Source: Flammeovirgaceae bacterium UBA4659
Lineage (GTDB): Bacteria; Bacteroidota; Bacteroidia; Cytophagales; Cyclobacteriaceae
Assembly: GCA_002405445.1 (NCBI GenBank)
Contig: DHLV01000229.1
Span: 12,998-30,717 of the forward strand
Direction of reading: 5' to 3'
Length of the DNA: 17,720 bases
The position numbers and the translations under genes are program-made. The notes under the pieces were generated by a model. It was given only the letters and a program-made list of their open reading frames with translations. It was not told the DNA's origin and did not search any database. This document shows positions 3,041 through 14,166 of this stretch, piece by piece (position 1 is the first letter of the stretch; the number at the start of each line of letters is the position of its first letter).

Positions 3041-4525
3041 TTGATTGCCGTGACACACGCCACCCTCATTTTTCCGCACCAGCTATTTGAAAAGCACCCT
3101 GCACTATACCAAGGAAGGCCAGTGTTTTTGGTAGAAGAATATCTGTATTTCAGGCAGTATCTTTTTCACAAGCAAAAGCTCACCTTCCACCGCGCCAGCA
3201 TGAAGGCGTATGAGGCGCATTTGTTGAAAAATGGATATCAGGTAACGTACATAGACGCCCATCATCAACTAGCTGATGTGCGGCAGTTGGTGGCCGCACT
3301 GGCGGCACAGGGGTTTATCGCGATTCATTACGCAGATGTAGTTGACTGCTGGCTGGGGCAGCGCATCCGCAGCACTGCCGGCAGGCACTCTGTGGCTTGC
3401 ACTGAGTATGAGTCTTTTTCATTTCTGTCGGATCAAAAAACAGTAGATCAATATTTTGGGGAAAAGAAAAAATTTTTCCAAACCGACTTCTACATGCAGC
3501 AGCGGAGGCGCCTCGACCTATTACTGACTGCTAAAGGTGAGCCCTTAGGAGGGCAATGGACCTATGACGCTGACAACCGGCTCAAATATCCCAAAAACAA
3601 GAAACCCCCCGAAGCGATATTTCCAACGCCAAACCCGTTTTGGAAAGAAGCGGCTGTCTATGTGCAGCAGCATTTTCCGAACAACTATGGCAATGTTAAT
3701 TCCGATTTCGCCTACCCTACCACATTTGCAGAAAGTAAAGCATGGTTGCAAGCATTTCTGGCAACACGGTTACAGGAATTTGGCGCGTACGAAGATGCGC
3801 TCGTTACCGATGAGCACATCTTGCATCACAGTGTGCTCACACCCATGCTGAATGCGGGGTTACTGACGCCACACCAGATCATTGATGAAACGGTGGCTTT
3901 CGCCAATCAAAACGATGTTCCGCTCAATTCGTTGGAGGGATTTATCCGACAAGTAATCGGCTGGCGCGAATTCATCAGGGGTGTGTACGTGCACAAGGGC
4001 ACAGCAGAACGCACCAAAAATTACTGGAGGTTTACTCGTAAAATTCCTGCGTCATTCTGGACCGCCACCACCGGCATACCACCCATCGACAGCACCATCA
4101 ACAAGATTTTGAAGACCGGCTATTGCCACCACATTGAGCGGCTGATGGTGTTGGGCAACTTCATGCTGTTATGTGAGTTTGATCCCGATGAAGTGTACCG
4201 GTGGTTCATGGAAATGTTCATTGATGCCTATGATTGGGTGATGGTGCCCAACGTTTATGGCATGAGCCAGTTTGCCGATGGCGGACTGATGGCCACTAAA
4301 CCCTACATCAGCGGCAGCAACTATTTGATGAAGATGAGCGACTATGAAAAAGGTGACTGGCAAAAAACCTGGGATGCACTCTTCTGGCACTTCATGCACA
4401 CCCACCGAGACTTCTTTCTGAAAAATCCGCGATTGGGCATGTTGGTAAAAACTTTTGATAAGATGCCCGATGAAAAACGCAATGGCCATCTGAAATTGGC
4501 CGTTACCTTTTTAAAACATCTCTGA
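3041..4525 (+). CDS. FeS-BCP-type cryptochrome/photolyase family protein lacking the 4Fe-4S cysteines
   Basis: 494-residue member of the prokaryotic photolyase group typified by Agrobacterium PhrB ((6-4) repair; FAD, 6,7-dimethyl-8-ribityllumazine, 4Fe-4S). The N-terminal alpha/beta antenna domain starts ATLIFPHQLFEKHPAL. The helical FAD domain contains GFIRQVIGWREFIRG (300-314), the active-site helix YCHHIERLMVLGNF (361-374) with the conserved His pair, and NVYGMSQFADGG (404-415). Oddity: where PhrB has SDYCxxC and a later ACPFN, this protein reads SDYEKGDWQKTWDALFW (433-449), so the cluster ligands are replaced (E436, D439) and the loop is shortened; the first ligand position is also not Cys. 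Start is uncertain: TTG 3041 follows GAGG by 11 nt, while GTG 3050 would begin exactly at THATLIFPHQ. Repair activity is likely but not provable from sequence. Confidence 0.88.
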   Translation: MIAVTHATLIFPHQLFEKHPALYQGRPVFLVEEYLYFRQYLFHKQKLTFHRASMKAYEAHLLKNGYQVTYIDAHHQLADVRQLVAALAAQGFIAIHYADVVDCWLGQRIRSTAGRHSVACTEYESFSFLSDQKTVDQYFGEKKKFFQTDFYMQQRRRLDLLLTAKGEPLGGQWTYDADNRLKYPKNKKPPEAIFPTPNPFWKEAAVYVQQHFPNNYGNVNSDFAYPTTFAESKAWLQAFLATRLQEFGAYEDALVTDEHILHHSVLTPMLNAGLLTPHQIIDETVAFANQNDVPLNSLEGFIRQVIGWREFIRGVYVHKGTAERTKNYWRFTRKIPASFWTATTGIPPIDSTINKILKTGYCHHIERLMVLGNFMLLCEFDPDEVYRWFMEMFIDAYDWVMVPNVYGMSQFADGGLMATKPYISGSNYLMKMSDYEKGDWQKTWDALFWHFMHTHRDFFLKNPRLGMLVKTFDKMPDEKRNGHLKLAVTFLKHL

Positions 4526-4945
4526 TGAGGATCCCCGCACTCCAAGCGCACCTCTTTGTGCCGGAAAGGCGATCAGCGCAGTTCACCGGTTTTCGTTTTG
4601 ATCGGTATCGCACGTCAGCATTACAGCATCCGAAGCCATGGTCAGGCGGCCGGCACCCCGTTTATCACGGAATTGTCACTTGAAGTTATTTGTTGCGACA
4701 ACTCTGCGCGAGGCGTGACGAAGCCTGACGGCACCGACAACATTGTATGGAAAACCCCAAACACTGAAAATGACAGAAAATTTGTCGACAACAATAACAT
4801 CCAATCCTTTCATGTTCAATCGTCAGCACGAAGTGTAAAAAGTATCACGACTTTTTTGTGTATTATTGAATTGCCCCAAACGGCTCAGTTTGCCTCGCAC
4901 GCCCACGGATTCAAACAAAAATCCATTTCAGATGTTTGTGCCTAT
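4526..4945. other. 420-bp non-coding gap
   Basis: No convincing gene. The frame of the downstream SDR stays open for 130 codons upstream of its ATG, but the translation resembles no domain and its residue use is unlike the neighbours. No strong promoter is visible; TCAGTTTG at 4885-4892 is a one-mismatch -7 box with no well-spaced -33 element. The stretch could hold the promoter of the 4946-8075 operon. Confidence 0.5.
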
Positions 4946-6427
4946 ATGAAAATCCTCCTCACAGGCTCCACGGGCTACATCGGCAGGCGGCTTTTGCCAG
5001 AATTGGTACGTGCCGGCCACCAAGTTGTTTGCCTCGTGCGCGACAAACGCAGGTTTGACTGGGACGACTTCGATCAGGCTTTTCTGGCAAACGTAGAAGT
5101 AGTGGAAGGTGACCTCACCGACCCAGCCTCCGTAAAGGATATTTCCATCCGCTGCGAAGTGGCATTTTACCTTGTGCACTCAATGAGTTCCTCTTACGAG
5201 AACTTTGCCGACAATGAGGCGCGCTCAGCGAATACCTTTGTGCAACTGGCCAACCAATGCGCGGTGAAGCAAATCATTTATCTCAGCGGTATTGTCAACG
5301 ATCAGGATCTTTCTGACCACCTACTCTCGCGCAGAAATGTGGAACACATTCTACAGCAGTCGAACATACCCGTTACCGTGCTTCGGGCTGCCATCATCAT
5401 CGGCTCGGGCAGCGCATCGTTTGAAATCATCCGCGACCTGGTGGAAAAACTTCCGGTGATGGTGGCTCCCAAATGGTTGAAAACAAAATGCCAGCCCATA
5501 GGCATCCGCAATGTCATCCAATACCTGCAGGGAGTGATGCTTAAACCCGAAACCTTTGGCCAAACCTTTGACATTGGTGGCACTGACATACTTACCTACA
5601 AAGAAATGCTGTTGGGTTATGCCAAGGTGCGAGGCCTCAAACGCTGGATCATCACCGTGCCGGTGCTTACGCCTAAACTTTCATCGTTGTGGCTGCTGTT
5701 TGTTACCTCCACTACGTTCTCGCTTGCGCGCAGCCTCGTTAACAGCATGAAAAATGAAGTGGTGTGCAAAGACAACCGCATTCTGGATATTGTGCCGCTG
5801 CAACGCCTGAGCTACGAAGCAGCACTTCGTTTGGCTTTTAACAAGATTGAAAAGAATGAGATCGTGTCCAGTTGGAAAGACTCCATTTCGCTGGCAACGA
5901 TGGAGAAACATTTTCTGGATCAAACGGAGGTACCACAACATGGCGTGTTCACCGATGTGCGGAAGATTTCCTTTTCGCGCAGCAAAGAAGAAGTGCTTGA
6001 CAATATCTGGCAGATTGGCGGCAACCAAGGCTGGTACTTTGGCGATTTCCTTTGGGGCATTCGCGGGCTACTTGACACAATGATTGGCGGAGTGGGGTTG
6101 CGAAGAGGCAGGCGCAGTCCAACCGATTTAAAAGCCGGTGATGCCCTTGATTTTTGGCGCGTGCTGGTAGCAGACCGAAACAATGCGCGGCTGTTGCTAC
6201 TTGCTGAAATGAAATTGCCTGGCGAGGCATGGCTCGAATTCAAAATCCGCGAAAGCGGCAACGAAAAAACGCTGATACAAACTGCAACCTTCCGGCCTCT
6301 GGGGCTGTGGGGCAGATTGTATTGGTATTCTGTACTTCCCTTCCATGGATTGATCTTCCCGCAGATGGCAAAGAACATTGTGGAGCGGACAAAATCAGCA
6401 ACAGAAAATGACCGTGCCCGGACATGA
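4946..6427 (+). CDS. SDR family oxidoreductase with C-terminal DUF2867
   Basis: 493 residues from ATG 4946. The N-terminal extended/atypical SDR Rossmann domain opens MKILLTGSTGYIGRRLLPEL with G7-x2-G10-x2-G13, then LVRD (charged residue after the second strand) and GDLTDPASV. The middle segment FYLVHSMSSSYENF and VLRAAIIIGSGSASFE is characteristic of the NmrA-like subgroup fused to DUF2867. The C-terminal about 150 residues (DFWRVLVADRN, LLLAEMKLPGEAWLEF, then GRLYWYSVLPFHGLIFPQM) form the DUF2867 START-like module, expected to bind a hydrophobic ligand. The activity is unknown; fused proteins of this kind are commonly annotated only as NAD-dependent epimerase/dehydratase. The next gene's ATG overlaps its end by 20 bp, so expression is coupled. 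Confidence 0.88.
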   Translation: MKILLTGSTGYIGRRLLPELVRAGHQVVCLVRDKRRFDWDDFDQAFLANVEVVEGDLTDPASVKDISIRCEVAFYLVHSMSSSYENFADNEARSANTFVQLANQCAVKQIIYLSGIVNDQDLSDHLLSRRNVEHILQQSNIPVTVLRAAIIIGSGSASFEIIRDLVEKLPVMVAPKWLKTKCQPIGIRNVIQYLQGVMLKPETFGQTFDIGGTDILTYKEMLLGYAKVRGLKRWIITVPVLTPKLSSLWLLFVTSTTFSLARSLVNSMKNEVVCKDNRILDIVPLQRLSYEAALRLAFNKIEKNEIVSSWKDSISLATMEKHFLDQTEVPQHGVFTDVRKISFSRSKEEVLDNIWQIGGNQGWYFGDFLWGIRGLLDTMIGGVGLRRGRRSPTDLKAGDALDFWRVLVADRNNARLLLLAEMKLPGEAWLEFKIRESGNEKTLIQTATFRPLGLWGRLYWYSVLPFHGLIFPQMAKNIVERTKSATENDRART

Positions 6428-7448
6428 CTTCCTTGACCGGCAGCGGTTTGTTGGCGACCCGGTGGCAGACACGCTGGTGGCTGACCTTATGCACACAAAT
6501 CGGGCACATGTGCTCTATGCCCCGTTACGTCTTTCGCCCGAAGAATTGATCAAAACAAAAGCAGCCGATCCGGTATTCGATTTTTTGGTGGGCAAACAAA
6601 CTTATCCGAAATGGTTTGACGAAAAGAGGATAATTAAGGGACAGGAATTATTTGAGCAATATGCCGTATCCATCATGAGTTTACTCGGTATGATGGCACT
6701 GCCCTATTGTTATGCTGCCTGCCCGGGCAACAAGGCACTCTACCTGACGGAAAAAATGCGCAATTCACCGGGTAAACGCCTGGCAGAGACCGGGGAGTTT
6801 ACGCTCGGTGTGATGCGAAAAGGAAGCCATGCCAAAGGTAAAACAGGCTTTGTGCACATCAACAAAACGAGGATGATCCACGCGATCGCGCGGTTTCACC
6901 TGCAAAAAGAGAATTGGGACAGCCACTGGGGGGTGCCCATCAATCAAGAAGATATGGCAGGCACCAATCTTGCATTCTCGTATGTGATTCTTGCGGGCCT
7001 GCAACAATCGGGCATCCTGCTTTCGCCCCGGGAAAAAGATGACTATATCTTTCTTTGGAAATACGTGGGTCGTCAACTGGGCATTGATGAGCGACTGCTT
7101 CCTGACTCTTTTCAGGATGCACACGTGTTGGCAGAAACCATCAAGCTTCGCAACCTGCGGAAAACCGAAGAGGGTATGGTATTGACCCGCGAACTGGTGC
7201 GTTATTACCAACTCGCTTTTCCCAAGCGCGAGGCCGGTTTTATAGAGTCGCAGATGCGGTATTACCTGGGGCCCGAGGTATCTGGCTACCTTGGCCTGTC
7301 AGAAGATCCGATCAAAGATCAACTGATCACGTGGGCCAACGCGTGGCAGGAAATGCAAAACATATTCTCGCTGCCACGGCACCAGCTCCCGCAACTGATG
7401 AGCAACCTCGGCTCATTGAAAAAGAAAACAACCGACCAACCCATATAA
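6408..7448 (+). CDS. Oxygenase MpaB family protein (DUF2236)
   Basis: 346 residues from ATG 6408, which overlaps the preceding SDR gene by 20 bp; a TTG at 6378 is a weaker alternative. The central region has the family hallmarks: INKTRMIHAIARFHL (151-165) and WGVPINQEDMAGTNLAFSYV (174-193), as in the MpaB / rubber-oxygenase Lcp superfamily of b-type heme oxygenases. R155 and H158 are the likely heme-site residues by analogy. The family oxidatively cleaves isoprenoid double bonds in characterised members, so an isoprenoid or carotenoid-derived substrate would be consistent with the carotenoid genes nearby, but the substrate is unknown. No signal peptide is seen, so a cytoplasmic location is likely. 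The next flavin reductase starts 15 bp after the stop. Confidence 0.85.
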   Translation: MTVPGHDFLDRQRFVGDPVADTLVADLMHTNRAHVLYAPLRLSPEELIKTKAADPVFDFLVGKQTYPKWFDEKRIIKGQELFEQYAVSIMSLLGMMALPYCYAACPGNKALYLTEKMRNSPGKRLAETGEFTLGVMRKGSHAKGKTGFVHINKTRMIHAIARFHLQKENWDSHWGVPINQEDMAGTNLAFSYVILAGLQQSGILLSPREKDDYIFLWKYVGRQLGIDERLLPDSFQDAHVLAETIKLRNLRKTEEGMVLTRELVRYYQLAFPKREAGFIESQMRYYLGPEVSGYLGLSEDPIKDQLITWANAWQEMQNIFSLPRHQLPQLMSNLGSLKKKTTDQPI

Positions 7449-7463
7449 ACCACCGGAGAGAAC

Positions 7464-8075
7464 ATGAAGGCTTTTGCTTTTCGGGAAATCAACACTTGGG
7501 AGCGGTTTTACCGCGCTAACTTCATCAACAGCCTCACCGGCTTCAAATCGGTGAGTTTGATTGGCACCGCAGATTTGAGTGGCAACACCAACCTGGCGGT
7601 GTTCAGCAGCGTTGTTCACATCGGGTCAGATCCGCCCCTGATAGGGTTCATCAATCGCCCCAAAAAAGCCGCGCCTCACACCATCGCCAATATTGAGGCC
7701 ACCGGCCAATACACCATCAACCACATCAAGCCGCAGTTTGCGCGGCAAGCACACCAAACCAGTGCAAAGTATCCGGTGGGTGTCAGCGAATTTGAGCAAG
7801 TAGGTCTGGCCATGGAGTTTGTAGAGAATGTCACAGCACCTTTCGTGAAAGAAAGTTCCGTCAAGTATGCTTTGTCGCTTCAGCAGATCATACCGATTAC
7901 ACTGAATGAAACTTTTTTGGTGATCGGCAAAGTGGAAGTGGTGATGATTGAAGACCACATCCTAAACGCAGACGGCTTCCTTGAACTAGACAAGTGCGAA
8001 ACGATATGCAGCAACGGAATCGATAGCTATTATGCCACCCAACACTTGTTACGGCTGCCCTATGCAAAGCCCTAG
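7464..8075 (+). CDS. Flavin reductase family protein, second copy
   Basis: 203-residue FMN-binding split-barrel protein. The segment GFKSVSLIGTADLSGNTNLAVFSSVVHIGSDPPLIGFI, seen in pieces here (SLIGTADLSGNTNLAVF at 30-46, then HIGSDPPLIGFI), is the standard FMN-phosphate and isoalloxazine region of the flavin reductase-like domain; YTINHI at about 89-94 is the usual following strand. It is not a close copy of the 157-residue flavin reductase at 1453-1926, being longer and with different motifs, so the two are separate subfamilies. It follows MpaB by 15 bp and precedes the cryptochrome by 39 bp, hence is likely part of the 4946-9584 transcript. Possible role: electron supply to the oxygenase or to the FAD of the photolyase-like proteins. 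Confidence 0.88.
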   Translation: MKAFAFREINTWERFYRANFINSLTGFKSVSLIGTADLSGNTNLAVFSSVVHIGSDPPLIGFINRPKKAAPHTIANIEATGQYTINHIKPQFARQAHQTSAKYPVGVSEFEQVGLAMEFVENVTAPFVKESSVKYALSLQQIIPITLNETFLVIGKVEVVMIEDHILNADGFLELDKCETICSNGIDSYYATQHLLRLPYAKP

Positions 8076-8114
8076 CCCGCCCATTGACTTTGTGTTGGAC
8101 CCCGCAAATGCCTG

Positions 8115-9584
8115 ATGCTGCCGCCCGTTCACATTGTGTGGTTGAAGCGCGACTTGCGCTTCAACGATCATCAGCCGTTGAAGCGGGCTGTTGAAGACGG
8201 CCTGCCCGTGTTGATACTCTATTTTTTTGAACCCACAGTGATGGGCGCCCCAGACAGTGACGAGCGTCATTGGCGATTTGTGCAAGAATCCATTTCAGAC
8301 CTCAATCAACTGTTGCCATCGAAGGGTAAAATCCATGCAATCCACGGAGAAGTGGTTGCGAGCCTGGAAACGCTGCGGCAGCACTTCCAAATCAGGAAAA
8401 TATTTTCTCACGAGGAGACCGGAAATGCCATCACCTACCAACGCGACATAGCAGTGGCTGCATTTTGCAGCCGGCACCAAATTGTTTGGCAAGAGTACCC
8501 AACAAACGGAGTGGTCAGAAGGCTGTACCACCGAAAAGACTTCAGCCAGCGCTGGCTTGGCACGATGACGGAACCTGAGTTTCAGGTTGACTTGCAAGCG
8601 CTTGTGCCGGTGTCATTGCCGAACGGGTTGTTGCCTGAGTACAGCGTGCAACACCTGCCAAACCGAAACTTCCAGCCGGGTGGCATAGGGGCGGCTAACA
8701 GGTATCTGCACAGTTTTTTGTACGAGCGAAAGTCAAACTATGCTCGGCATTTCTCCAAACCACTGGAAAGTCGCACCGGCTGCAGCCGATTGTCGCCCTA
8801 CCTGGCCTGGGGTAATTTGAGCATGAAGCAAGTGTATCAAGCCACATTGAAAGCGATCGGGCAAACGGGCGATAAGCGAAACCTCAACTTCTTTATTGCA
8901 CGGTTGCACTGGCACTGCCACTTCATACAGAAGTTTGAATCAGAATGCCGCATGGAGTTTGAAAATCTCAATCGCGGTTTTGACGAGATCAGAACTGAAA
9001 TAAACCCCGATTATCTGCGGGCATGGCAGGAAGGAAATACCGGCTTTCCGCTGGTAGACGCCTGCATGCGGTGCGTACGCGCCACAGGATACCTGAATTT
9101 CAGAATGCGGAGCATGGTTGTTTCATTTCTGGCCCACCACATGTGGCAACCCTGGCAAGCAGGCGCAGCTTTTCTGGCCAAGCAATTTTTGGATTATGAG
9201 CCGGGTATCCACTATCCGCAATTTCAAATGCAGGCCGGCACCATGGGTGTCAACACCATCCGCATTTACAATCCCGTCAAACAAAGCGTGGAGCACGACC
9301 CTGACGGTATGTTTATCAAAAAGTGGGTGCCGGAACTGGAGCAAGTGCCCGCACCGCAAATTCATGAGCCTTGGAAGATGTCAGCTGAAGAAAAGTCGAA
9401 GTGGGGTATTGGCACCCGGTATCCACTGCCTGTGGTAGACCTGCTGGTGACTGCGCGTTTCGCCCGTGAGTACCTTTGGAGAACAAAAAGATCAAAAAAA
9501 GCACAGGCCGAAAATACCGGTATCCTCAAGAAACACACCCGAAACAAGCGGAGTAATGCAACCAAAAAAGCCGAAGGTGGGTGA
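8115..9584 (+). CDS. Divergent two-domain cryptochrome/photolyase
   Basis: 489 residues. The N-terminal alpha/beta domain ([16 protein letters not shown] at 7-22; [10 protein letters not shown] at 71-80) is followed by the helical FAD domain ([13 protein letters not shown] at 224-236) and a basic tail of about 35 residues. An ungapped alignment to E. coli PhrB over residues 297-370 shows key changes. Asn378, which touches FAD N5, is H366. Trp382 is F370 and Trp306 is T294; only Trp359 (W347) of the electron-transfer triad remains. CPD-contact Glu274 is R263 and Asn341 is F328, though Trp277 is kept (W266). The segment [15 protein letters not shown] (366-380) marks the subfamily. The protein very likely binds FAD, but classical CPD repair and Trp-triad photoreduction look doubtful. 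It ends the operon; a 283-bp AT-rich gap follows. Confidence 0.87.
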
Positions 9585-9687
9585 TTGGAGATCTGGTTTT
9601 GTGTTTAAAGCCATCTGCATGTCGTTAAACACCGAAAATTACCTTTCATCAAAATCATAACGGGTAAGTTCGCAAATACTTAAAAAT

Positions 9688-9773
9688 AATGTTCAATGAA
9701 TTGATGACATAAGTTGATATTTAATCAACATGTATAGAAAATAATCTAAATTTATAGTCAATAATTGAACATT
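9688..9773. promoter_or_regulatory. Nested inverted repeats upstream of the rhodopsin
   Basis: AATGTTCAAT at 9688-9697 and ATTGAACATT at 9764-9773 are perfect 10-bp inverted arms 66 bp apart. Beyond one mismatch the outer bases pair for 3 more. Between them lies GTTGAT-ATTTA-ATCAAC at 9713-9729, a second perfect inverted repeat. The stretch is very AT-rich and sits 95-180 bp upstream of the rhodopsin ATG. Two operator types, or one looped complex, are possible. A weak promoter candidate downstream is TTTTTTG (9772-9778) with ATCGTTTG (9802-9809). Confidence 0.45.
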
Positions 9774-9867
9774 TTTTGATCTCTGCTGAAATTACTTATC
9801 AATCGTTTGAAACAAGGCGGGGCAATAGGTGTTTAACAAGTATTAATTAACCCTTAACCACAATTTT

Positions 9868-10608
9868 ATGAGTACACTTCTCTCAGACATCGTATCAATC
9901 CCTGTGGATGATCCGATTGCATTCACTTTCTTTACTGGCTACATGGCCATGCTTGCATCTGCAGTTTTCTTCTTCATGGAAAGAAGCAGCGTAGATGGCA
10001 AGTGGAAATTGTCGTTGCTTGTATCGGGCTTAATCACCGGTATCGCGGCAGTTCACTACTATTACATGCGCGACTACTACCTGGCAACAGGCCAAACGCC
10101 TACCGCCCTGCGCTACATTGACTGGACGTTGACTGTGCCATTGATGTGTGTAGAGTTTTATTTGTTGACCAAGGCTGCCGGTGCTACAGTGGGGTTAATG
10201 TGGAAATTGATATTGGCAGCGGTGTTGATGTTGGTTGCAGGTTACATTGGTGAAGCATTTACAGACGGGTCAACATCACACAGTGTCATCTGGGGTGTAA
10301 TATCCACTGTTGGATATGTGTACATTTTGTACACCGCCTGGTTTGGTGAAGTTGCTCAACTTGCAAAGAATTCCGGAGACGCAGTGGTGGTGAGAGGCGT
10401 GAAGATTTTGGCTTGGTTTGTTTTAGTAGGATGGGCGGTGTATCCTATCGGCTACATGTGTATGCCCGGTGGATGGCTCAATACCGGCCTGGGCTGGAGC
10501 TCTTCAAACGTAGATTTATTCTACAACATTGCTGACGCCATCAACAAAATAGGATTTGGTTTGGTAGTATATAGTGTTGCAGTTTCTGCTAAATCATCAA
10601 AAGCGTAG
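9868..10608 (+). CDS. Proteorhodopsin, light-driven proton pump
   Basis: 246-residue seven-helix microbial rhodopsin without a cleaved signal peptide. Helix C reads RYIDWTLTVPLMCVEFYLL: proton acceptor D85, T89 and donor E96 form the DTE motif of outward proton pumps. H63 lies 22 residues before D85, as His75 does before Asp97 in green proteorhodopsin. The retinal Schiff-base lysine is K227 in ADAINKIGFG. The spectral-tuning site (Leu105/Gln105 in marine variants) is M93, the residue typical of green-absorbing Bacteroidota proteins. It is followed by a hairpin and then crtY and blh, so opsin, carotene and retinal genes are together. Whether a carotenoid antenna binds (xanthorhodopsin type) cannot be judged without aligning helix E. 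The inverted repeats upstream are candidate regulation. Confidence 0.97.
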   Translation: MSTLLSDIVSIPVDDPIAFTFFTGYMAMLASAVFFFMERSSVDGKWKLSLLVSGLITGIAAVHYYYMRDYYLATGQTPTALRYIDWTLTVPLMCVEFYLLTKAAGATVGLMWKLILAAVLMLVAGYIGEAFTDGSTSHSVIWGVISTVGYVYILYTAWFGEVAQLAKNSGDAVVVRGVKILAWFVLVGWAVYPIGYMCMPGGWLNTGLGWSSSNVDLFYNIADAINKIGFGLVVYSVAVSAKSSKA

Positions 10609-10643
10609 CAGTTCACCAGTACACTTTCGTATGAATAATAAGT

Positions 10644-10680
10644 CAAGGAGTCACTTCGGTGACTCCTTGCATTTTAATTT
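10644..10680 (+). terminator. UUCG-capped hairpin terminator/attenuator between rhodopsin and crtY
   Basis: CAAGGAGTCAC (10644-10654), loop TTCG (10655-10658), GTGACTCCTTG (10659-10669): a perfect 11-bp stem closed by C-G around a UUCG tetraloop, 35 bp after the rhodopsin stop. The following CATTTTAATTT is a T-rich but interrupted tract, so termination may be partial. crtY starts directly after it. Confidence 0.8.
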
Positions 10681-11868
10681 GTGGGTACAGCCAATCAACC
10701 ATTATTGTATCGCTTCACGATTATAGGCGCGGGCGCATCCGGGTTGTGGTTGGCGCACGCGCTGCTGGAGCACGGTCTTCTTGAAAACCAAACCCTTTGT
10801 ATTGTAGAGGCTGACAGAAAAAAAGAAAACGACCGCACATGGTGCTATTGGGCTCAGAAGCCGATTGAACCTGCGGAGGCGATCAGCAAGCAATGGGCAA
10901 GGGTGCATCAGCATCATGCATCGCCTGAACCCAAATCACTGGCTCCCTATCACTACTACCACATTCGCAGTGCAGACTTTTACTCGATCGTAAAGGATCG
11001 GCTCAAGGCCTGCAAAAATGTTAGTTGGATTGAAGAAGAACTGCTCGAATACCACGAGCAGGAAAGCCACGTCTGCCTGGCAACCTATACACATCAATGG
11101 ACGAGCCAACAGGTGTTTCTTTCGGCATTGCCAGCGCTATCCGCCAACATTGCACCGGCACGCAACAACAACGGCCACGGCCTGTTTCTTTGGCAATCAT
11201 TTGTAGGGTGGCGCGTAAAAACGGCCACAAACGCATTTGAAGAAGATAACATGTCGATGATGGATTTCAGCATCGCACAAAATAACCAAACCCAATTTAT
11301 GTACGAGCTGCCATTTTCAAAAACAGAGGCGCTGGTAGAGATGACCAGGTTTGGAAAAGAGAAATTGACAGTGGCAGAAGCAGAAGTGGAACTAAAAAAA
11401 TATTTTTTGGACAAAGGCAAAGGCGCCTACACCATCGAAGAAGTTGAAACAGGCGCCATACCCATGACGCCCCAATTCGACAGTCGGCAAAGGTATTTAC
11501 ACCCACATACACGCACCGTTCTGATCGGTACGCTGGCAGGCGCCATCAAACCCTCTACCGGCTTTGGTTTTAAACGAATGAACGAGTACGCCACCGCACT
11601 GGCATCAGCCATCAAAAACAACACAGCACTGCCTACCATGTACCGCCCGTTCAGGTTCCGTTTATATGACGAATTACTTTTGTCGATACTCACTGAGACA
11701 CCGCAGCGGGGAAAAGAAATATTTGAACAGCTCTTCCGCAGGCAACCGATACAACGTATCTTGAAATTTCTGGACGAGAAAACTTCGTTTTATGAGGAAT
11801 TGCTGATTTTTATAAGGTTGCCCATCCGCTTGTTTCTGAAGTCACTTCTTTCCCGAATATTTACCTGA
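10681..11868 (+). CDS. crtY: Lycopene beta-cyclase
   Basis: 395-residue CrtY-type flavoprotein that converts lycopene to beta-carotene. FAD-binding Rossmann motif TIIGAGASGLWLAHALL (residues 13-29) has G16-x-G18-x2-G21; E43 ends the second strand (CIVEAD). Other family signatures: NDRTWCYW (50-57), ETGAIPM (256-262) and KPSTGFGFKRM (290-300). Start is GTG 10681, only 11 nt after the hairpin stem; TTG 10705 is an alternative that would begin just before RFTIIGAG. There is no room for a promoter of its own between hairpin and start, so expression probably comes from read-through of the rhodopsin transcript or from a promoter inside the rhodopsin gene. The stop overlaps the blh start (TGATG). 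The genes making lycopene are not in this window. Confidence 0.95.
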   Translation: MGTANQPLLYRFTIIGAGASGLWLAHALLEHGLLENQTLCIVEADRKKENDRTWCYWAQKPIEPAEAISKQWARVHQHHASPEPKSLAPYHYYHIRSADFYSIVKDRLKACKNVSWIEEELLEYHEQESHVCLATYTHQWTSQQVFLSALPALSANIAPARNNNGHGLFLWQSFVGWRVKTATNAFEEDNMSMMDFSIAQNNQTQFMYELPFSKTEALVEMTRFGKEKLTVAEAEVELKKYFLDKGKGAYTIEEVETGAIPMTPQFDSRQRYLHPHTRTVLIGTLAGAIKPSTGFGFKRMNEYATALASAIKNNTALPTMYRPFRFRLYDELLLSILTETPQRGKEIFEQLFRRQPIQRILKFLDEKTSFYEELLIFIRLPIRLFLKSLLSRIFT

Positions 11869-12788
11869 TGTACGCGCAGTCACGTTTATTCAGCATACAA
11901 TTGGTGGCACAGGTTGCACTGACTTTAGTGTTTTTTATTCTCCGTGTAAATTCAACGGCACAAGCGATATTTTGCGGGATGCTATTGTATGTAGTGGGCA
12001 TCCCGCACGGCTCCAACGATTACTTGTACCGGCCCGATCAAACCGTGGCGGGCATGTTCAAATTTCTGGGGGCATACCTTGGCACCATGGCCGTGTACGC
12101 CACACTTTGGTGGTTTGTTCCAGCGTTAGCATTTGTGCTGTTCTTTTTCATTTCGTTTCACCATTTCGGCCAGTCTAACTTTGAAAATGATACGTTGTGG
12201 TACCCGCCATCGTGGCTGTGGGGGTTATGGATTCTGGCATTCCCGGTGCTGCTGCACTTTGACGAAGCCGTTTCAATCTTTCGGCAGATGATTGATGTGA
12301 CCCCGTCAGATCCTGCCATCACACCACTCCTGCCAACAACCGTGCCGCTGAAAACGTGGCAGTGGATCGGCTCCATTAGCATTGGTATCGCATACCTCGC
12401 TGCACTGTTTTTTTATCAGCCGAAGAACAAACTGCGGTATGTGATGCAGTTTGTTGCGGTAACAACCTGGTACATTCTAATGCCGCTGTTGTCAGGCTTT
12501 GTGGTGGTGTTTTGTCTGTGGCATTCGCTGCAGTCGTTCCGGCACCAAAGCCAATATTACCAAACACGCTACGGCAAAGGACTATGGCCATTTGTAAAGG
12601 CGATGTTGCCCTTCACCCTGATCGCACTGATGGCTTTTGGGGTGTATGTTTACCTGAGGGAGTTCAAAATATCTGAAGCGTTTATCATGCTTTCGCTTAT
12701 CACGTTGCCTCACGTACTGGTCATGCACCATCTGTATCACCATACCAACGAGTCGCCACAAACAGGTATCACGCCATCCACCTCATAG
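11868..12788 (+). CDS. blh: Brp/Blh family beta-carotene 15,15'-dioxygenase
   Basis: 306-residue polytopic membrane enzyme that splits beta-carotene into two retinals. Conserved His positions for the non-heme iron are visible: H47 in GIPHGSNDY, H98/H99 in FHHFGQSNF, H219 and H226 in WHSLQSFRHQ, and H282 plus H287/H288 in LPHVLVMHHLYHH. Hydrophobic helices alternate through the whole length. Its ATG overlaps the crtY stop by one base, so the two are translationally coupled. Together with crtY it supplies the rhodopsin's chromophore. The TIGR03643 gene begins 11 bp later, so that gene and the following photolyase-like gene may share the transcript. Confidence 0.95.
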   Translation: MYAQSRLFSIQLVAQVALTLVFFILRVNSTAQAIFCGMLLYVVGIPHGSNDYLYRPDQTVAGMFKFLGAYLGTMAVYATLWWFVPALAFVLFFFISFHHFGQSNFENDTLWYPPSWLWGLWILAFPVLLHFDEAVSIFRQMIDVTPSDPAITPLLPTTVPLKTWQWIGSISIGIAYLAALFFYQPKNKLRYVMQFVAVTTWYILMPLLSGFVVVFCLWHSLQSFRHQSQYYQTRYGKGLWPFVKAMLPFTLIALMAFGVYVYLREFKISEAFIMLSLITLPHVLVMHHLYHHTNESPQTGITPSTS

Positions 12789-12799
12789 CAGAACAGAGC

Positions 12800-13078
12800 A
12801 TGGAAAAGGAATTTACCGCATCGGAATTGGATCGCATCATACAGATGGCATGGGAAGATCGCACCCCGTTTGAAGCCATTCAGATGCAATTTGGGTTGAA
12901 AGAGAAAGAAGTCATCACATTGATGCGCGCGCACATGAAGGCCAGCAGTTTTAGGATGTGGCGCAAGCGCACCAACGGCCGAGCCACAAAGCATCAACTG
13001 ATCGGCAACCTCGAAAATGGGCGCTTCAAGTGCAGTCGTCAGCGCACAATTTCCAACAACAAGGTCTCCAAGCGCTGA
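12800..13078 (+). CDS. TIGR03643 family protein
   Basis: 92-residue protein. The first about 65 residues (FTASELDRIIQMAWEDRTPF, then EAIQMQFGLKEKEVITLMR and SSFRMWRKRTNGR) match TIGR03643, a family of about 70 residues with a helix-turn-helix-like pattern and a basic end. The C-terminal 25 residues (LIGNLENGRFKCSRQRTISN) are an extension. The function is unknown, but the family co-occurs with photolyase/cryptochrome and DUF2256 genes. Its TGA overlaps the ATG of the next photolyase-like gene (TGATG), which suggests the two are made in fixed proportion. DNA binding would fit the helix-turn-helix appearance but is inference. Confidence 0.87.
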   Translation: MEKEFTASELDRIIQMAWEDRTPFEAIQMQFGLKEKEVITLMRAHMKASSFRMWRKRTNGRATKHQLIGNLENGRFKCSRQRTISNNKVSKR

Positions 13079-14166
13079 TGGGTCCGACATTCCCCGCAGA
13101 CTATGAATCCATCAAGAGGCGTGTGGAAGCGGCCGACCCCCTAGCCTATGCCCGCACCCGGAACTACATTGATGGTGCCGTCACCTATCTGTCACCGTAC
13201 ATCTCACGTGGCGTGATCAGCACCAGGCAGGTACTCGACACAGTGTTGGCAAAAGGCTACGCCCTACAAAGTATTGAAAAATTTTTTCAGGAGTTAGCCT
13301 GGCGTGAGTACTTTCAGCGCGTGTGGCAGGCAAAAGGCGATGAGTTATTCAATGATTTGAGACAGCCACAGCCTGAGGTGATGCATCGCAAAATGATTAC
13401 TGCCTTGCAAAACACTGCCACCGGAATTGATGCCATCGATCAACAAATCAAGCAGCTATACCAACGAGGATACCTGCACAACCACGCACGCATGTATGTG
13501 GCTGCCATTGCATGCAATGTGGGAAAAGCCCATTGGCTTGCTCCCGCGCGTTGGATGTATTTTCACCTGCTCGATGGCGACTGGGCCAGTAACAGTTGCA
13601 GCTGGCAGTGGACAGCAGGTGCATTCAGTTCAAAAAAATATTTTGCCAACCAGGGAAACATCAATCACTTTTTAAACAGCAGCCAACGCAACACATTTCT
13701 TGATGTAGGCTATGACTGGCTGCCGCGAATACCAATACCGGATGTTTTGCTGGACACGACCGACCAGCAGTTGCACACCCCCCTGCCCCACACGCCTGCG
13801 CCATCGCTTGATGCCACCTTGCCAACGCTAGTGTACAATTCCTATCAACTTGATCCTCTGTGGAGAGAACATGAACGTGCGAACAGAGTTTTACTACTGG
13901 AACCATCTCACTTCCAAAAATATCCAGTCAGCGCAAGGGTTTTGCAGTTCATCATAGACCTTTCAAAAAACATTCCCGGCATTCAGATTTTCAATGGAGA
14001 AATAACCGATCTGACCAAATTGATTTCGCCCGAGTCAATAATCTCCAAAGAGCATCACGCGTTTCGGTATCCAGGCAAAAAAGATGTGCGCGACTGGCTG
14101 TTCCCGCACGTCACTGGTTACTTCCCGTCATTCTCCGCATTTTGGAAAAAAGCCTACATTGTGTAA
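13078..14166 (+). CDS. Photolyase-like FAD-domain protein with C-terminal alpha/beta domain (apparent circular permutation)
   Basis: 362 residues from ATG 13078, which overlaps the TIGR03643 stop; longer in-frame starts (GTG 12958) add residues antisense-like in composition and are disfavoured. It starts directly in the photolyase FAD domain: YLSPYISRGVIST (37-49), ELAWREYF (72-79), RGYLHNHARMYVA (130-142), DWASNSCSWQWTAG (168-181), then SSKKYFANQGNIN. E. coli PhrB equivalents retained are Glu274 (E72), Trp277 (W75), Asn341 (N135), Trp359 (W153), Asn378 (N172) and Trp382 (W176); Trp306 is not kept. No antenna domain precedes it. Residues about 248-362 instead look like an alpha/beta domain: 250-291 align without gaps to residues 8-49 of the photolyase homologue at 3041-4525, sharing T-L, L, E, F, Y, L and F at matching positions. 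FAD binding is likely; DNA repair is plausible. Confidence 0.82.
   Translation: MGPTFPADYESIKRRVEAADPLAYARTRNYIDGAVTYLSPYISRGVISTRQVLDTVLAKGYALQSIEKFFQELAWREYFQRVWQAKGDELFNDLRQPQPEVMHRKMITALQNTATGIDAIDQQIKQLYQRGYLHNHARMYVAAIACNVGKAHWLAPARWMYFHLLDGDWASNSCSWQWTAGAFSSKKYFANQGNINHFLNSSQRNTFLDVGYDWLPRIPIPDVLLDTTDQQLHTPLPHTPAPSLDATLPTLVYNSYQLDPLWREHERANRVLLLEPSHFQKYPVSARVLQFIIDLSKNIPGIQIFNGEITDLTKLISPESIISKEHHAFRYPGKKDVRDWLFPHVTGYFPSFSAFWKKAYIV

Follow-up and report, generated by a model that had tools for sequence, protein, structure and literature searches.

A FAD-first, short photolyase-like protein within a photolyase gene cluster of a Bacteroidota bacterium

Introduction

Photolyases with a reversed domain order, in which the helical domain that binds flavin adenine dinucleotide (FAD) precedes the alpha/beta domain, have been known from bacteria since 2020. 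The class was described as NewPHL or SPL (short photolyase-like) proteins by Emmerich et al. 2020 and Xu et al. 2021 (cited here through excerpts of PMC9426592, PMC13274461, PMC9649867, and PMC8948257). In these excerpts "NewPHLs or SPLs" have an inverted domain topology and include proteins of D. shibae, M. mesophilicum, E. litoralis, and R. centenum (UniProt A8LJA9, M7YZC8, Q2N8F4, and B6IPR5; PMC13274461), a Trp dyad is reported for the D. shibae NewPHL (PMC8948257), and the same protein is reported to be active on cyclobutane pyrimidine dimers (CPDs; PMC9426592). Here we describe a gene, below called the window SPL, in a 17,720-nucleotide stretch of contig DHLV01000229.1 from Flammeovirgaceae bacterium UBA4659 (the window, to whose positions all coordinates refer), which encodes a further, little-studied member of this layout. 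An earlier note on this DNA had taken the arrangement for a new architecture, a suggestion overtaken by the published reverse-order photolyases (NewPHL/SPL and Phr7 of Prochlorococcus, and also Phr4-6). In the NewPHL of Emmerich's 2020 work, the catalytic domain is reportedly N-terminal and the C-terminal domain is said to seal the FAD site.

Domain order and class assignment

The window SPL very probably belongs to the NewPHL/SPL class, with its FAD-binding helical domain at the N-terminus and a small alpha/beta domain (the Z-domain) at the C-terminus. The Pfam scan, the structure model, and structure superposition agree on this inverted order, as the earlier note had read it. A Pfam scan of the full-length protein gave a single family at E 1 or better, PF03441 (FAD_binding_7), located at residues 69-189 (E 5.6e-21). 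Residues 1-227 superpose on photolyase FAD domains, and a PDB sequence search returned 44 distinct sequences at E ≤ 0.001 (best 4.2e-17), with the FAD part alone covered. The structure model (pLDDT 96.9) gives a confident alpha/beta prediction for the C-terminal part, with strands predicted at residues 250-254, 269-274, 303-306, and 321-324, followed by a fifth, shorter strand (334-336). An antenna domain has not been lost just upstream, because a DUF2805/TIGR03643 gene occupies the sequence up to the start codon, its stop at 13078 overlapping that codon by one base (TGATG); Pfam, superposition, and this overlap together bear out the view that no antenna domain precedes the FAD domain.

Nor is the gene broken, since the 119 relatives among the matches listed (the window's own excluded) share 59–71% identity over 98–99% of the query and are 363–405 residues long. 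The protein search found 5,892 matches at E ≤ 0.001, of which 120 were listed, and the other 5,772 may include ordinary photolyases. A frameshifted or shortened ordinary photolyase is ruled out, as the relatives are of similar length and the upstream frame is another gene.

The window SPL shares with NewPHLs an N-terminal FAD domain, a predicted C-terminal alpha/beta domain, a Trp dyad, and an Asn near FAD. A tree of the FAD domain, built from 39 hand-picked rows, joins the window group (11 rows) and 11 other FAD-first proteins with support 91/78, separate from 17 other photolyase rows. Those other FAD-first proteins comprise proteins from plasmids of Deinococcus, Novosphingobium, Asticcacaulis, and Peteryoungia and seven relatives of a Ruegeria protein, and from their architecture and taxonomy we infer that they are NewPHLs. 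A whole-profile comparison of the two FAD-first groups gave prob 100 and E 4e-47 and extended to window residue 294, within the Z-domain.

Several points weigh against the assignment. The joining branch is unstarred, and long branches are flagged elsewhere in the tree. The Z-domains of the two FAD-first groups, compared alone, reached an hhalign prob of 0.5, with 5/100 shuffles as good. At the position of R350 in the A. nidulans photolyase, the window SPL and all 62 aligned sequences have His. An SPL is described with an Fe-S (iron-sulfur) cluster in the excerpts of PMC9649867, whereas the four Cys for a cluster of that kind are not found in the window SPL, which has Cys146 and Cys174 and no others; Phr7, in the excerpts of PMC9426592, is said to be without Fe-S Cys too. 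Because no characterized NewPHL sequence entered the comparison, membership rests on architecture, residues, and presumed NewPHL relatives. The lack of a significant sequence match between the Z-domain alone and the alphaproteobacterial-type C-terminal domain would also suit a circularly permuted photolyase of a truly new kind, without kinship to the reverse-order proteins already described, but this seems very improbable given the whole-protein profile match that reaches into the Z-domain, the common clade, and the published precedent for reverse order.

Active site and proposed function

Nearly all mapped contact residues of the FAD domain are retained. Relative to the A. nidulans photolyase, whose residue numbers and functional roles we take to be as generally given, E283, W286, N349, M353, W367, D380, D382, N386, W390, and W392 are kept, and these ten positions are invariant or retained in 60 of the 62 aligned sequences. 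The residues noted in the window SPL are E72, W75, N135, M139, D166, D168, N172, W176, and W178; E72, W75, N135, and N172 are the CPD- and FAD-contacting Glu, Trp, and Asn that the earlier note had rightly recognized. W176 and W153 form a Trp dyad, with no third Trp to complete a triad, as in the D. shibae NewPHL; W314 is replaced by Glu, and its position holds Trp in 0/62 aligned sequences. These retained residues and their conservation across the family, like the domain order and the predicted fold, are direct results of this analysis.

By analogy with the described class, the best reading is that the window SPL would be a CPD photolyase for single-stranded DNA from a divergent, Bacteroidota-rich NewPHL/SPL lineage. 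FAD would be held in the helical domain, where blue light and the two-Trp chain (W176, W153) would maintain FADH-. With single-stranded DNA as the preferred substrate, a pyrimidine dimer would be flipped into the pocket of E72, W75, M139, and W178; excited FADH- would then give an electron, the dimer would split, and the electron would return. The Z-domain would probably close the FAD site, with no antenna pigment needed. The activity, single-strand preference, electron path, and Z-domain role put forward here are carried over from the known family. The replaced third Trp and Arg350 might instead mark a light sensor of cryptochrome type or the remnant of a defunct photolyase, which we consider improbable because the mapped CPD- and FAD-contact residues are maintained across the 62 sequences, because 20 of the 28 loci compared below have other photolyase genes in the vicinity, and because the D. 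shibae NewPHL, reported to act on CPDs, likewise has a Trp dyad (PMC8948257, in excerpt).

Origin of the C-terminal domain

The earlier note had proposed that the C-terminal region is the missing alpha/beta antenna domain, citing an ungapped 42-residue match to the DPRP-type photolyase homologue encoded at 3041-4525. This match, with 8 identities and a BLOSUM62 score of 15, is no better than shuffled sequence: the best 42-mer of shuffled C-termini reached 15 in 354/1000 shuffles. When these regions were paired over a different stretch of 42 residues, the score was 22, equalled in 108/1000 shuffles, while gapped local alignments of the SPL C-terminus were equalled by 68/1000 shuffles against the DPRP N-terminus and by 308/1000 against the photolyase encoded at 8115. 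The hhalign alignment of the Z-domain to DPRP lies one residue off the register of the 42-residue match and is suggestive at most.

Profile comparisons gave a weak signal, but one that leans toward an antenna origin. Against the class I-type antenna the Z-domain scored 19.7, with 1/100 column shuffles as good (the highest shuffled profile scored 20.7), and the best of eight decoy families reached 17.9; against the DPRP antenna, 17/100 shuffles were as good. The C-terminal domain of the other FAD-first group (25 rows) aligned end to end with the class I-type antenna (18-136 with 5-131; 2/100 shuffles as good), and 11/100 were as good for the DPRP antenna. In these profile comparisons class I-type antenna domains outscore the DPRP antenna, and DPRP as the particular source of the Z-domain is not favoured in either group. 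For scale, the accepted pair of class I and DPRP antennas itself reached no more than prob 14.3. When the Z-domain profile was searched against 68 photolyases, the best match began within the first 200 residues in 63, more than for any of 30 shuffled profiles, and 9 photolyases were among its top 26 non-SPL matches (0–7 for shuffled profiles). None of these matches is individually significant and the top one is not a photolyase; the pattern could also arise from a common alpha/beta pattern without kinship.

Searches with the Z-domain alone were less telling. One PDB sequence search found no matches, and another found four (best E 0.35), none of them photolyases. A Pfam scan of the Z-domain in 28 members hit 11 scattered families (best E 0.017), and Foldseek against PDB and BFVD gave no match under E 0.001, with photolyases absent among the best 50 PDB rows. 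In a second Foldseek examination photolyases did appear, tied with universal stress proteins; the top row, 6k8k_D, has a root-mean-square deviation of 5.6 and a chain range of 5-294 that extends past the antenna domain.

The alpha/beta fold of the earlier proposal stands and the 42-residue match does not. A shortened, relocated antenna-like domain is plausible and the likelier reading, with moderate support from structure and profiles, though universal stress proteins score equally in the structure search. That the Z-domain is instead an unrelated Rossmann- or universal stress protein-like domain fused to the FAD domain is a possibility that we take seriously without favouring it, and we give it more weight because pantothenate synthetases also align over nearly the whole Z-domain in the second Foldseek examination. 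The fullest version of the relocation proposal is rather unlikely to hold in all its parts: that the Z-domain is truly a relocated, shrunken antenna, that a single circular permutation links NewPHL/SPL and ordinary photolyases, and that the Bacteroidota enzyme and DUF2805 are a translationally coupled pair within a photolyase cluster.

Gene neighbourhood and distribution

We compared 28 SPL loci, 27 from representative genomes and one from a Persicobacter plasmid, with flanks of at most 6–8 kb and several short contigs (Table 1). The TGATG overlap suggests translational coupling of DUF2805 and SPL, and the DUF2805 protein is a possible partner of SPL. In 20/28 loci a homologue of the 8115-9584 photolyase directly follows SPL and/or a DPRP homologue is present, a recurrent photolyase neighbourhood that speaks for a function in repair. 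Four PF03441 genes were found in the window's genome, which is 89.7% complete, and all of them lie within about 17 kb of this contig.

Table 1. Features of the window SPL and neighbouring genes
Feature	Positions	Strand	Details
NewPHL/SPL (short photolyase-like) gene, probable	13078..14166	+	362 aa, open frame, ATG start
N-terminal catalytic FAD domain	13078..13758	+	residues 1-227; Pfam, PDB sequence matches, superposition
C-terminal alpha/beta Z-domain	13798..14163	+	residues 241-362; predicted structure, structure and profile comparisons
DUF2805/TIGR03643 small protein, function unknown	12800..13078	+	directly upstream of SPL in 11/28 loci
Photolyase, ordinary order (PF00875 then PF03441)	8115..9584	+	homologue directly 3′ of SPL in 12/28 loci
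DPRP-type photolyase homologue (PF04244 then PF03441)	3041..4525	+	homologue in 15/28 SPL loci
Flavin reductase-like protein (PF01613)	7464..8075	+	homologue in 13/28 SPL loci

Flavin reductases and a rhodopsin/retinal cluster are interspersed among the four PF03441 genes (3041-14166 and the contig upstream), and a heme oxygenase-like gene (PF01126) lies at 2238-2774, just before the DPRP gene. Genes for rhodopsin, lycopene cyclase, and a Blh-type beta-carotene dioxygenase are consecutive at 9868-12788. Only one of the 28 loci (L002) showed homologues of the neighbouring rhodopsin and Blh genes, so the retinal genes are probably outside the SPL gene unit; in that locus a rhodopsin 89% identical to the window's is accompanied by Blh, with DUF2805 and SPL behind. 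One further locus (L006) has a lycopene cyclase-like match, at 24%.

The 27 loci of the representative-genome scan comprise 23 from Bacteroidota, 3 from Acidobacteria, and one from a metagenome-assembled genome whose record title places it in the gammaproteobacteria. Within the window's phylum, 109/198 genomes match SPL at E ≤ 0.001, the weaker of the listed matches covering the FAD part, and 16/198, counting the genome of the window itself, do so at E < 1e-70. Ten phage records match over 41–45% of the protein, each within the FAD domain, and 160 plasmid records match, two of which (Persicobacter) have a match covering at least 80%; these counts bear on a mobile origin and are uninformative on chromosomes. 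Two relatives differ visibly from the window SPL: one on a Deinococcus plasmid (L053:1824-3221) has a Cys cluster (CAGC...C) that the window SPL lacks and is possibly of Fe-S type, and one of 414 residues (L046:1480-2721) seems to have an insertion that separates its FAD and C-terminal domains.

In Bacteroidota, reverse-order photolyases are found repeatedly, in many cases adjoining ordinary photolyases, and the window SPL is a short, well-modelled example for asking if the Z-domain is a relocated antenna. The origin of that domain bears on whether the NewPHL/SPL class is ancestral or derived.

Comparison with known systems

In class I CPD photolyases (A. nidulans 1OWL/1QNF, E. coli 1DNP) the antenna comes first, whereas in the window SPL the Pfam scan found no PF00875 domain before PF03441, and the third Trp and Arg350 are replaced. 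DPRP-type photolyases, such as that encoded at 3041-4525, belong to the same superfamily and are represented by a nearby gene; the same scan found no PF04244 match in the window SPL. Phr4/Phr5 and Phr6 of marine Synechococcus/Cyanobium (excerpts of PMC9426592) likewise have the FAD domain before the photolyase domain. Fe-S cysteines are implied for Phr4/Phr6 in those excerpts, in contrast to the two Cys of the window SPL, and the window Z-domain, unlike Phr4-6, matches no Pfam photolyase model. From other NewPHL/SPL proteins the window SPL differs in its divergent, Bacteroidota-rich lineage, in a Z-domain hardly recognizable by sequence, and in length, at 362 residues against mostly about 390–410 in the alphaproteobacterial relatives compared. 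With them it shares a FAD domain placed first without an N-terminal antenna, a small C-terminal domain, a two-Trp chain, and an Asn near FAD.
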